A DNA stretch of 64,000 nt from Halobaculum sp. MBLA0143 (GTDB taxonomy: Archaea; Halobacteriota; Halobacteria; Halobacteriales; Haloferacaceae): positions 620,001-684,000 of the forward strand of contig NZ_JBGKAC010000001.1 in the NCBI RefSeq assembly GCF_041361465.1. Direction: 5' to 3'. Under the pieces are notes generated by a model. The model ran no database searches, was not told the origin of the DNA, and saw only the letters and a list, made by a program, of their open reading frames with translations. This document shows, one piece after another, positions 8,382 to 59,914 of the stretch; within the stretch, counting starts at the first letter, position 1; every line of letters begins with the position of its first letter. Made by a program: the position numbers and the translations under genes.

Positions 8382-9650
8382 GTGGGCAAGAAGATCTCCT
8401 CGAATCAGGCGCTGGAACAACGTTCCCGGACGGAACTGAAGTCGGCGTTCGAGGGCTGGGCCGTTAACGACTTAGAGAACGACTTCGGGCTCGACTTCGT
8501 CGTTCAACTGGCGAGCCCGGCCAGGCGAGAGGAGGAACAGCACACCGAACTGACACCGTTCAGCTGTTATGTCCAACTGAAGGCCGCCGAGTCGTTCGAC
8601 GGCGGAGAGTCCGTCAGCCGTTCGATCAGCACCGATCTGTTCGACTCCTACTGGGGGAGTCCGGTCCCGATCGCCTTCGTGTTCTACGAAGACTCGACAG
8701 GGGACCTCTACTACCAGTTCCTGCAAGACATCGTCTGGACCGACCTCTGGGAGTCGACACCGACGTGGCGGACACAGGAGACGGTGACCGTTCGGATCGA
8801 CAGGGACCGACAGCTGACGGACAGAGACGACTTCGGGGAGGCGGTCGAGGCGTGCCAGCGACGGATCGAGACACGTCGGTACAGGCAGCAGTTGGTCGAA
8901 TCGGCGCTTAGCGAGCGTGTCGGTGGAAGAGGGGCCCTCGCCGGAACAGAGCATGTAATGGCCTACTTCGCTAACATCGTTGACAACGGTCCTCTTCCAT
9001 ACGAACTGAAACCGATACGACAATGTCTGAGCGAACTCGCCCCGCTTGACTTTCACACCACCGTCACGGGATGTGATCCGGCTGCACCGTTGTTCACCCT
9101 GTACGACTGCTGCCGGGTGGCGGCCCGCATTTGCACGGACGAAGTCCCAGAGATGGCCGAGTTCTTCTCGGGGTACGCAGACCGAACCCGCGCGTCCCTA
9201 CGACACTGGCTCGTCGGGAACGTCTACCTGAACTGTGAGATAGACGAGACGTTCGTGATGCTCGACGTGTACGAACTCACCCAGGAACCGACCGAATTCG
9301 GTCTCTGGATGGCAACACAGCAGTACGAGGACGGAGTGTTCTGGGACGAGAACCCACGATCGATCTGCAACACACCGACCTACAAGCTCGTTGAACAGGT
9401 CCCGTACGAGGAGGCGACTGCTCCACACAACGCCTGTGAGGAGGGCGACCACGAGATGATCGTCACAAGCCCAGACGGTATCGATCCGTTTCTCTCCTGT
9501 GAGCGCTGCGGCCTCTCGATGGATGTTCTGTGTGAAACCCCGTGCCATGTGCCTGAACTGACGTGTAACCGATGCGGTGAGAACACCCTCGGAGAAGTAG
9601 TCGACGAGTCGGGGGTATACTGTAATGCCTGTGCGGCCAATCGGCGCTAA
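8382..9650 (+). CDS. DUF4365-type nuclease-like protein with C-terminal zinc ribbons
   Basis: A 422-residue protein. Residues 1-150 match the DUF4365 pattern: an N-terminal Gln-rich helix (SSNQALEQRSRTEL), then D38 in NDFGLDFVVQL, and Q65-x-K67 in CYVQLKA, the spacing of a PD-(D/E)xK nuclease core. The middle (about 170-330) is helical with no recognised domain. The last 60 residues hold Cys pairs (CERCG, CNRCG, CNAC), likely two zinc ribbons. From about 8930 on, AT-ending codons are more frequent than in neighbours, suggesting horizontal transfer. GTG 8382 begins with MGKKISSNQAL. DUF4365 proteins are often found in defence or mobile contexts; no defence partner is adjacent. It overlaps the convergent ASCH gene by 4 bases. 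Confidence 0.75.
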   Translation: MGKKISSNQALEQRSRTELKSAFEGWAVNDLENDFGLDFVVQLASPARREEEQHTELTPFSCYVQLKAAESFDGGESVSRSISTDLFDSYWGSPVPIAFVFYEDSTGDLYYQFLQDIVWTDLWESTPTWRTQETVTVRIDRDRQLTDRDDFGEAVEACQRRIETRRYRQQLVESALSERVGGRGALAGTEHVMAYFANIVDNGPLPYELKPIRQCLSELAPLDFHTTVTGCDPAAPLFTLYDCCRVAARICTDEVPEMAEFFSGYADRTRASLRHWLVGNVYLNCEIDETFVMLDVYELTQEPTEFGLWMATQQYEDGVFWDENPRSICNTPTYKLVEQVPYEEATAPHNACEEGDHEMIVTSPDGIDPFLSCERCGLSMDVLCETPCHVPELTCNRCGENTLGEVVDESGVYCNACAANRR

Positions 9651-43396: not shown

Positions 43397-43651
43397 TTGC
43401 CACGGATTGCGGTCTCTCCGGGGAAATCTGTCACTCAGATCCGAGTTGTCGAGCGTGGACGTGACAGCGGGAAGCTCACCACGCTGGGCGTCGACGGAAG
43501 CCGACCCGATGCTCGCCTGTTCTATCGGCATCGACGGCCGGGTTCACGTCGTTCCCGCAGTTGCCGTCGGCCGGTGCCGATCCTCTCCGCGAGACGGCCG
43601 ACGGCAACGACTGCGTCGGACTCTGGGCGTACGAGCTACTGACCAGCTACT

Positions 43652-44449
43652 CTAGCTGAGACGGTTCGGGTGTGTGGGGGCCGGCAGGACAGTCTGTAGC
43701 TCACCCTTGCTCTGGTGATAGCCGCCGCCGATCTGCGCCCCGTACAGGGTCTGTGTGTAGCCGAAAGCAGACTTGTCGAACTCGATTGCTCCGAACGTGA
43801 GGGTGTACGTGTTCGTCACGTACGCTGCGAGACCCCCGACGAGGGCGATTGCCCCGGAGATGAGTGCCGTCAGACCGCCACTGAGCGCAGACGACCCGAC
43901 GAGCGCGATGAGTGCCGTGCTGATAGCTCCCCACCCGATGTCACCGACTTTGTTGGGGAACTCGGCAGTGATCCCGACCCACTTGTGTGTGTAGTCGTAC
44001 GCATTACAGCTGCCGTTGGTGTCCGTGTACACGTCCGAGCGCTCGATGATGTCCTTCGCCTGGACCGTGACACCGTTCGCAGACACCTGCACACCGTCGT
44101 CGGTAGCCGTCGTCTCTACGGCCTCGTTGGCCGTCACTCTGTCTTCATCAGCGAGTGATGCCATTGCCTGGAACTTCTCCTTACTGACCTCACTCACACT
44201 GGCTGTGTCTGCTCTGTTGTCGACGACGGCGACGAACCGCTTGCGTTCCCGCTTCTCCTTGTTGGTGACGTCGACGACGTGGACATCCTTGCTCCCGCTG
44301 TCGGCGATGATCGCCTTCTTGTGGATGTCCAGAACCTTTTCCGCCGACCGGTCGCTGTCGCTGCTGGCTGCGGCGACACCTGGGAGACCGGCCATTCCGA
44401 TGCCTGCACCACATCCGCGAAGGAGTTGCCTCCGGTTCAGATCTGTCAT
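43652..44449 (-). CDS. Tat-exported protein with hydrophobic helical hairpin (candidate halocin-like precursor)
   Basis: A 265-residue protein of unknown family. The N-terminus MTDLNRRQLLRGCGAGIGMAG is a twin-arginine signal with hydrophobic stretch ending at AAASS. A polar, acidic middle (about 30-150) is followed by a hydrophobic Gly/Ala/Ser-rich stretch (about 163-215): WGAISTALIALVGSS, then GGLTALISGAIALVGGLAAY as landmarks, two helices with small-residue packing, and a polar tail ending GGYHQSKGELQTVLPAP. This precursor layout (Tat signal, long pro-region, hydrophobic C-terminal part) is like that of halocin C8, though without its Cys-rich core and with no sequence match seen. A small membrane gene lies 357 bases upstream. 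ATG 44449 starts the signal. Codons are less GC-rich than neighbours. Confidence 0.6.
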   Translation of the reverse strand: MTDLNRRQLLRGCGAGIGMAGLPGVAAASSDSDRSAEKVLDIHKKAIIADSGSKDVHVVDVTNKEKRERKRFVAVVDNRADTASVSEVSKEKFQAMASLADEDRVTANEAVETTATDDGVQVSANGVTVQAKDIIERSDVYTDTNGSCNAYDYTHKWVGITAEFPNKVGDIGWGAISTALIALVGSSALSGGLTALISGAIALVGGLAAYVTNTYTLTFGAIEFDKSAFGYTQTLYGAQIGGGYHQSKGELQTVLPAPTHPNRLS

Positions 44450-44548
44450 GGGTTTGTACCCGACACATGGTTTCTCCCGAGACAAAATAAACCAACCGAT
44501 TTTAGCTTGGTGTAACTCACACAGATAAATTTCCTGTGGCAGAAAGTG

Positions 44549-44563
44549 CTATCTACTAGATAG
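44549..44563. promoter_or_regulatory. Palindrome in AT-rich control region
   Basis: CTATCT (44549-44554), ACT, AGATAG (44558-44563): perfect 6-base inverted arms, 100 bases upstream of the Tat-exported protein start. The 357-base stretch 44450-44806 is AT-rich and holds no gene; this palindrome and runs such as TAAGTATAATATAG (about 44593-44606) suggest promoter and regulator sites. Confidence 0.45.
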
Positions 44564-44806
44564 ACAGAGAACGACTACTCGCAACGAAGTGTTAAGTATA
44601 ATATAGTCAAAAGAAAGACTTTGAGCCGCCGTCCGAACCGGATTCGCTAATATCGTCTATCTGTTTCCTGGACCTTCGTGCTCGGGGCGTCGTCGCAGGA
44701 CGCAGTTGTTGACGTTCCACCTGTAGTAGACCCCCCCAGCGTCTCGGATCGGCGAGGCAACTGTACGTGCACGGACACGGCCTACCCACCGACAGTGCAG
44801 TGCCCC

Positions 44807-45169
44807 TCACTCGGCCAACGAGAGCGTAAAGGCAGCACCGACCGCGCTTCCGAGGCCGATTCCGACAGCAACTCCGAGGATAATCTCCGGCGCAACCACT
44901 CCGTAGACGAACAGAAACGTGACTGCGATAGCCCCAATCGTGACGAGCCACTGCCCACGCTCGAACACGGCCTGTAACGGGCCAACCCGCTCGGCGACAG
45001 CAGTTACGGTTGCGAACCCACCTCCGAGGACGACGCCGACGGGTGACGCCGACCACACGGTGAGATCACTCGCCACCACTGCCACGCCCGCAGCAGTGAC
45101 GGTGACGACACCGACGAGTAGCCGCAACAACACGCCTTCGAACCTTTCTCTTCGACTGATAGCACTCAT
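44807..45169 (-). CDS. Small polytopic membrane protein next to the exported protein
   Basis: A 120-residue protein with about four hydrophobic helices (landmarks LLRLLVGVVTVTAAGVAVV, SPVGVVLGGGFATVTAV, WLVTIGAIAVTFLFVYGVV, EIILGVAVGIGLGSAVGAAF) and a basic N-terminus MSAISRRERFEG. No family was recognised. ATG 45169 is preferred to GTG 45184. Gene order and size are compatible with an immunity protein for the neighbouring exported hydrophobic protein, but that is inference from context only. Confidence 0.68.
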   Translation of the reverse strand: MSAISRRERFEGVLLRLLVGVVTVTAAGVAVVASDLTVWSASPVGVVLGGGFATVTAVAERVGPLQAVFERGQWLVTIGAIAVTFLFVYGVVAPEIILGVAVGIGLGSAVGAAFTLSLAE

Positions 45170-58429: not shown

Positions 58430-59710
58430 TCAGTCGGCCGACTCTGTCGCGGTCCCGAGGCCGATGTTGTCGTGGTCGAGATCCGCGACGCGGGGAAGTG
58501 TTCTGATTCGGCCGTTGGCCGCGAAGTACACCGCGAGCACCATGGTGGTGGCCGCTAACAGGTACAGTCCCGCGCCGGGACTGAACACGTCGCCGACGAT
58601 CCCTCCAATCAGACTCCCGACTGGCAGCGTGACCATCGTGAGACTGGAGAACGCCGAACTGACACGGCCGAGGTACTCCTGTTCGACCGCCGACTGGAGG
58701 AGCGACCCGAGGAGTACGTTGAACGCGCCGATGGGGAGGAACGCGACGGCGAGCGCGAGAGGGGTGACGATTGGCCCCTTGAACACGACTGCCACAAGTA
58801 CTCCGACGGCGGCCAGCCCGTACCCGAAGACGGCGAACAGCCCGTACGGCACGTCTTCGACGAGCCACGAGCCGGCGGAGCCGCCTAGGTTTCCGGCGAC
58901 GAGCGACGCCATGAGGATCCCGTACATCCCTGCCCCACCGATTGTGTCTGCGAACGCTGGGAAGATCGCAGTGACGACACCCGCCCCGAAGTTGGCGACC
59001 ATCCCACCGATGCCGATTGGGACGAACAGAGAGCCACGGAGGTAGCTCACGCCACCCTTCAGGTCCGACAGGTACTCGTCGGTGATGTCGCCCGGCTCCG
59101 GATCACTGTCCTCGCCGTCGTCCGTCTCTCCATCCGCGTGCGGGAGTTTCAGGCCGAGGAACATCAGGGTCGCAAAGGCGAACGTGATGGCGTCGAACAC
59201 GAACAGTGCAGTCGTTCCGATTGCGACGATGAGGAACCCCGACGCGGCGTTGAACGCGATGTCGGCGGACCGCCCCGCGAGTTTGAACAGTGAGTTTGCT
59301 CGGACGAGCTGCTCGTCCGAGACGATCTGTGGGAGCAGAGCGCTCTGTGCGGGGTACTGGAACCGCGAGACGGTCGCCAGTGTCGGGATCACGGCCAGGA
59401 GAACCCAGACACTGAGCCTGTCGAGGAAGCTAGCGACCGGGATCGTCAGGACGAACACGCCCTGTATCACCTGTGTGAGGACCAGCGTCCGCCGTCGGTT
59501 CCACCGGTCGACGAGCGGGCCGACGAGAAATTCGATCATCTGTGGGCCGCGCATCAGGAACCCGGCGACACCGGTGAACAACGTCGAACCGGTGAGATCG
59601 TGGACCAACCACAGTGCTCCGATGAGATAGAGACTGTCTCCGAGGTTCGTTGCGACTCTCCCGAGGAAGAACCTCACGAAGGGGATGTTTTTGTACAGTT
59701 TCTCAGTCAC
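58430..59710 (-). CDS. MFS transporter (MFS_3/enterobactin-exporter-like)
   Basis: A 426-residue protein with 12 helices. MFS_3 landmarks: GRVATNLGDSLYLIGALWLVHDLTGS, motif A-like GPLVDRWNRRRTLVL, NSLFKLAGRSADIAFN, and SAVEQEYLGRVSSAF, as in macrolide/enterobactin exporters. The long acidic loop between helices 6 and 7 (ADGETDDGEDSDPEPGD) is cytoplasmic. GTG 59710 (MTEKLYKNIPF) is chosen over a longer start at 59761 whose residues are not MFS-like. Codon use is less GC-rich than the surroundings, and AT-rich DNA lies upstream, so horizontal gain is possible. Confidence 0.88.
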   Translation of the reverse strand: MTEKLYKNIPFVRFFLGRVATNLGDSLYLIGALWLVHDLTGSTLFTGVAGFLMRGPQMIEFLVGPLVDRWNRRRTLVLTQVIQGVFVLTIPVASFLDRLSVWVLLAVIPTLATVSRFQYPAQSALLPQIVSDEQLVRANSLFKLAGRSADIAFNAASGFLIVAIGTTALFVFDAITFAFATLMFLGLKLPHADGETDDGEDSDPEPGDITDEYLSDLKGGVSYLRGSLFVPIGIGGMVANFGAGVVTAIFPAFADTIGGAGMYGILMASLVAGNLGGSAGSWLVEDVPYGLFAVFGYGLAAVGVLVAVVFKGPIVTPLALAVAFLPIGAFNVLLGSLLQSAVEQEYLGRVSSAFSSLTMVTLPVGSLIGGIVGDVFSPGAGLYLLAATTMVLAVYFAANGRIRTLPRVADLDHDNIGLGTATESAD

Positions 59711-59914
59711 TATTGGCCCGATAGAGAGAACACAGATATGTCTTTTGAACAAGAACAGCATTTAAAAATGAGATGTAGTCGAACACCAACGAGCGTCTAC
59801 ATACCCTCCCCGTCGCCGGCGTCGAGCCACGCGCACCGGTGGGAGAACTACCAGAAGCTGTTCGTCTGTCGAGCACGGACGACGAGGACGACTGAGACGC
59901 GCGGTCGAGACGCT

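Follow-up and report, generated by a model that had tools for sequence, protein, structure and literature searches.

Halocin production is said to be near-universal among haloarchaea; to our knowledge, genes have been assigned to only a handful of halocins, and most halocins escape detection by sequence. Halocin C8 is a cysteine-rich peptide of 76 amino acids (aa), and the sulfolobicins SulA and SulB are secreted archaeal antimicrobials with a separately encoded immunity protein, SulC. In pore-forming colicins a hydrophobic helical hairpin enters the cytoplasmic membrane, and an immunity protein with three to four transmembrane (TM) segments recognizes the toxin in the membrane of the producer. 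Halocin H4 (HalH4) of Haloferax mediterranei is activated by the extracellular protease HlyR4, which releases an active C-terminal fragment, and for HmHapP (HFX_0892) of the same species two alpha-helices are needed for killing and the active part consists of the N-terminal 45 residues (PMC12893001). The locus described here lies in a 64,000-nucleotide stretch of the genome of Halobaculum sp. MBLA0143 (contig NZ_JBGKAC010000001.1, positions 620,001 to 684,000; hereafter the window), and consists of a gene for a protein with a twin-arginine translocation (Tat) signal and a gene for a small membrane protein. The two genes form a real, conserved and previously undescribed system. We read the pair, at a probability of about 0.7, as a halocin-like, membrane-acting toxin with a separately encoded membrane immunity protein, belonging to a new haloarchaeal family whose function is predicted.

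The Tat protein (265 aa), the candidate toxin and called so below for brevity, is encoded by an intact open reading frame (ORF) at 43652-44449, on the minus strand like all features of the pair. Its start is the ATG at 44449, with a TTG at 44485 as a possible alternative upstream. The N-terminus reads MTDLNRRQLLRGCG...AAA and carries a twin-arginine signal with the motif NRRQLL (signal region, residues 1-30; 44360-44449). The arginine pair recurs in 32 of the 35 members of the family alignment, which bears out the Tat signal described in the initial annotation of this locus, although the window protein scores just under the cut-off of the Pfam and NCBIfam Tat models. The long polar pro-region of that annotation was also recovered, at residues ~31-130, as was its Gly/Ala/Ser-rich two-helix hydrophobic part, detailed below.

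In an AlphaFold2 model built with the family alignment, a variable N-terminal domain of four strands and a helix (residues 40-103; 44141-44332; predicted local distance difference test, pLDDT, ~85), a candidate pro-domain, is followed by a disordered linker (residues 104-130; 44060-44140; pLDDT <50) and a candidate C-terminal effector domain (residues 131-265; 43655-44059), which the model resolves as a domain over residues 131-260. Modelled alone, the C-terminal domain reached a pLDDT of 88 and a predicted template modelling score of 0.80. It comprises two strands, a helical hairpin and three further strands; the hairpin (residues 173-211; 43817-43933; helices 173-186 and 191-211) is hydrophobic and rich in Gly, Ala and Ser. 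Foldseek searches with the full protein and with the C-terminal domain against the PDB, and with the domain against viral models, gave no match at E<=0.001, and the modelled fold of the domain is without counterpart among solved structures.

The membrane partner is encoded at 45169-44807, upstream of the Tat gene and on the same strand, by an intact ORF whose product of 120 aa has four predicted TM segments, as had been noted for the small four-helix gene at this place. It is a candidate cognate immunity protein, with homologous partners beside homologous toxins and orphan copies elsewhere. Neither protein matched anything above chance in Pfam, NCBIfam, PHROGs or PADLOC, and a search of mostly freely accessible literature found no paper describing the Tat protein family.

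Relatives of the Tat protein were found by sequence and profile searches. With the single sequence, one relative was obtained among the 170 genomes of the host's taxonomic family; the same kind of search of the genome collection yielded Natrinema mahii H13, and a further one yielded a toxin fragment on the TuA4 megaplasmid. A three-sequence profile detected ~20 loci in 391 haloarchaeal genomes, and a 22-sequence profile added further loci in the same set. A prevalence of 199 of 391 genomes, suggested by the latter profile, was discarded as consisting mostly of matches to the Tat signal only; matches to the C-terminal domain occur in about 33 genomes, a lower bound given that few candidates per genome were scored. 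At least 36 loci were read. The C-terminal domain alone, run against 295 genomes of the phylum, had no match beyond the haloarchaeal order. The family is diverse, restricted to haloarchaea and patchy in its distribution.

Across the family the N-terminal half is hypervariable, the Tat signal excepted. The C-terminal domain keeps Cys148 (44006-44008) and His260 (43670-43672), both invariant in the 35-member alignment, His155 (43985-43987), conserved in at least 90% of it, an acidic position near 225 and the Gly/Ala-rich hydrophobic stretch. The Gly-zipper models PF13441 and PF13488 match the hairpin of up to 4 relatives (best E 2.8e-5, up to 7e-3), and Bacteriocin_IIc (PF10439) matches one relative (E 0.004); these matches are weak to moderate and reflect only the Gly/Ala spacing of the hairpin. 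The host genome holds two more family members (C1:2443195-2443875 and C1:2753418-2754173), three in total, and its three pairs have three partner types. Each of the two additional members (L087:5196-5873 and L129:4418-5173) is followed by a small gene with two TM segments, the two being of different families; a C-terminal coiled-coil-like stretch was seen in the partner of the former.

All loci were screened for small ORFs containing at least two hydrophobic segments. Pairing was scored for an ORF on the same strand, at most 350 bp downstream, of at most 160 aa and with at least two TM segments. Such a neighbour was found for 33 of the 41 family genes, compared to 7 of 188 other long ORFs at the same loci (Fisher p ~2e-25). 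At five further loci (L051, L054, L055, L057 and L090) the strand opposite the toxin gene carries a small TM gene nearby, with homology between the genes of L055 and L057; only L094 and L095 lack a recognizable small TM neighbour. Because the pairing is conserved in other genomes, the pair in the window is more than a chance arrangement. A different view would take the two genes for a surface or structural pair, or for an ordinary exported protein with a hydrophobic neighbour present by chance. The long polar region would suit a surface protein; a chance neighbour is refuted by a pairing conserved so far beyond the control, and the diversification and gene loss of the family are atypical of structural proteins. 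The initial annotation had held that homologs among structural surface proteins would speak against its proposal, and no surface-protein family gave a convincing match. We regard this view as very unlikely.

The partners fall into about 17 unrelated sequence clusters, and partner type goes with toxin subfamily. The four-TM cluster (the window, L008, L043, L044, L046, L047 and L050) accompanies the closest toxins, those of the window clade, and a cluster with two TM segments (L009, L010, L042 and L045) accompanies the neighbouring toxin clade. A partner of the window type is present in 13 of the 391 genomes, and in 6 of these 13 no toxin was seen in the flanks read (1.5 kb; 14 kb for genome G056).

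Broken toxins were also encountered. In genome G205 (L050:5056-5838) the toxin is without its signal and without the C...H-plus-hairpin part, following an in-frame deletion between short DTD repeats that amounts to a natural inactivation, and the partner is intact, 90% identical to that of a relative (non-synonymous divergence dN 0.056, synonymous divergence dS 0.100). On TuA4 the N-terminus of the toxin is gone beside an ORF resembling an insertion sequence (IS), and the partner stands. A truncated toxin in genome G368 (L102:3581-5290) is followed by two homologous partner copies, much like an immunity gene array, and in genome G190 (L100:4708-5859) the C-terminal half of a family member forms an in-frame fusion with an ORF resembling a transposase. 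Because of the pairing, the partner types that follow toxin subfamilies, the orphans and the broken toxins with intact partners, we favour a toxin with cognate immunity: judged from the sequences, the partners behave like immunity genes, adjacent to the toxin, matched to its subfamily, found as orphans and surviving its loss.

These observations also bear on another reading, in which the Tat protein would be an exported metal- or redox-binding protein, with Cys148, His155 and His260 as its site, and the neighbour a membrane anchor or a partner for electron or metal transfer. The Cys and His residues are indeed the most conserved positions of the family, and folded, cofactor-bearing proteins suit Tat export. 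An obligate complex would be unlikely to swap its partner family so often, however, and neither orphan partners nor intact partners beside a broken main gene would be expected of it; the very patchy distribution and the lack of any match by sequence or fold to a solved metalloprotein also speak against it. We consider it unlikely as an account of the pair. For the three residues themselves, one guess is a metal site that stabilizes the domain, and the set is possibly a metal or redox site.

A toxin with self-protection could also be used within a population, in cannibalism, programmed lysis or a fratricide and DNA-uptake role. Deletion of halocin H4 changes the DNA uptake of its producer (PMC6759562), and the architecture and genetics expected are identical to those of an antagonism module. 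The orphan partners in other genomes and the spread across taxonomic families better fit a defence against outside producers, and use within the population appears improbable to us, to the same degree as a metal or redox role. Least probable of all, and close to dismissible, is an anti-virus system or an intracellular toxin-antitoxin pair: the two genes are small and patchy, and IS elements lie near some copies, but the Tat signal directs the protein outside the cell, and searches of PADLOC, phage records and viral contigs gave no match.

We propose that the two genes act as an antagonism module with its own protection. The Tat protein would be exported in the folded state, and extracellular proteolysis within the disordered linker would then probably free the C-terminal domain from the pro-domain. 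The activation of HalH4 by HlyR4 is a precedent for such processing. An activating protease is plausible because the host encodes seven subtilases. For the processing sites raised in the initial annotation the linker provides a candidate region, in which cleavage is presumed. In related haloarchaea the freed domain would then damage the cytoplasmic membrane by inserting its Gly/Ala-rich hydrophobic hairpin, and the four-TM protein in the membrane of the producer would block the cognate toxin there.

Several observations weigh against this proposal. Partner similarity follows toxin similarity (Mantel r = 0.70, p = 0.0002), but the signal stems from close relatives, and a rank correlation that takes in all pairs is non-significant (Spearman 0.06). 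In the window, unlike most relatives, the partner lies upstream, across a gap of 357 bp, and neither the Gly-zipper models nor Bacteriocin_IIc match the window protein significantly. The conserved Cys and His residues could indicate a metal or redox function, which would be superfluous for a simple pore-former, and the small hydrophobic neighbour could instead be a membrane anchor or a chaperone. Taken together, a new archaeal antimicrobial family with a membrane partner, as proposed in the initial annotation, is the best-supported reading, carried by the pairing, the subfamily tracking, the orphans, the broken toxins and the Gly-zipper-like hairpin, with killing as a prediction. Somewhat less firmly, we think it probable that the whole represents a large, haloarchaea-wide and undescribed family of antagonists that leave the cell by Tat, act on membranes and have a new fold, each with a dedicated small integral-membrane immunity protein from one of many unrelated families. 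It would thus be a polymorphic, bacteriocin-like system of archaea in which one genome holds several variants.

As to the history of the locus, in the same-genus genome G160 the ilvE and major facilitator superfamily (MFS) flanks are in place, and a GNAT gene occupies the slot of the pair; this ORF, a GNAT-like acetyltransferase at L109:8508-9314 in the ilvE-MFS interval, marks the slot as variable. In the toxin tree the window toxin groups with members from other taxonomic families. The occupied slot and the mixed taxonomy are consistent with gain and loss by exchange; the tree contains paralogues, and hence is no proof of transfer.

The DNA between the two genes (44450-44806, minus strand) is a likely promoter of the Tat gene. 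Its GC content is 51%, compared to 61-62% in both genes and 69.8% in the whole window, which agrees with the AT-rich patch reported earlier, and the upstream regions of relatives are likewise AT-rich (42-48% GC). The palindrome reported in this patch exists, as a perfect 7+1+7 repeat at 44549-44563 (CTATCTACTAGATAG), and is expected by chance: a palindrome of equal quality appears in ~11% of shuffled versions of this stretch. The motif is absent upstream of the eight relatives checked, and we do not retain it as a special regulatory site. A far stronger inverted repeat (GTTGCCGTCGGCCG) is located at 43560-43608, downstream of the Tat gene and between it and ilvE, with perfect arms of 14 bp (43560-43573 and 43595-43608) and a loop of 21 nt; it is a terminator candidate, and its single copy in the genome speaks against a mobile element. 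Elsewhere in the window, an AT-richer ORF of 422 aa at 8382-9650 has a zinc-ribbon-like C-terminus with CxxC pairs, and its N-terminal half presumably resembles a DUF4365-type protein. Another AT-richer patch, at 58430-59761, overlaps with its upstream part the beginning of a gene for an MFS-type transporter.

The family provides a sequence-based handle, since cognate immunity genes can be predicted at dozens of loci, and its orphan partners and broken toxins constitute clean natural controls. The questions of who antagonizes whom among haloarchaea, and of how self-killing is avoided, become testable.

Among known systems, the initial annotation had pointed to halocin C8 (ProC8/HalI; Halobacterium AS7092 and others), and this analogy holds in outline only. 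Both are haloarchaeal Tat precursors in which an N-terminal part precedes a smaller C-terminal part, possibly the active one in the window protein, and self-protection is encoded together with the toxin in C8 and, by prediction, in the window pair. In C8 the immunity part, HalI, is located within the same precursor, whereas the window has a separate membrane gene; the window domain is a beta-sheet with a hairpin and one conserved Cys, Cys148 being alone after the signal, and not a Cys-rich peptide. An hhalign comparison of the family with an unconfirmed C8 reference sequence indicated no relation (probability 0.8%); this result and the one for HalH4 below are leads. A C8 relative is rejected on sequence, cysteine content and the probable placement of immunity, the absence of a Pfam or NCBIfam match being the stronger statement. 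The N-terminal domain of the Tat protein may have an immunity role; C8-style self-immunity is not supported, and the conserved separate partner makes it unnecessary.

HalH4 is also made as a Tat precursor, similar in size and likewise containing a hydrophobic segment. Only its Tat signal aligned with the family in hhalign, using an unconfirmed HalH4 sequence that gave no match in plasmids or in the genomes of the family, an uninformative negative, and no dedicated membrane immunity gene for HalH4 is described in the literature searched. HmHapP shares a secreted haloarchaeal precursor and extracellular proteolytic activation; it is set apart, by its description, in that N-terminal residues and not a C-terminal domain are active. 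The sulfolobicins, as is proposed for the window pair, are secreted archaeal antimicrobials with a separate immunity gene; they are of another lineage and sequence. In the way it would work, the window pair resembles the pore-forming colicins with their integral-membrane immunity proteins, to which no relation in sequence or fold was found; the window system is archaeal, Tat-secreted and built on a beta-sheet scaffold. With a fold unseen among solved structures, it would represent an archaeal counterpart to the pore-forming bacteriocin/immunity pairs.
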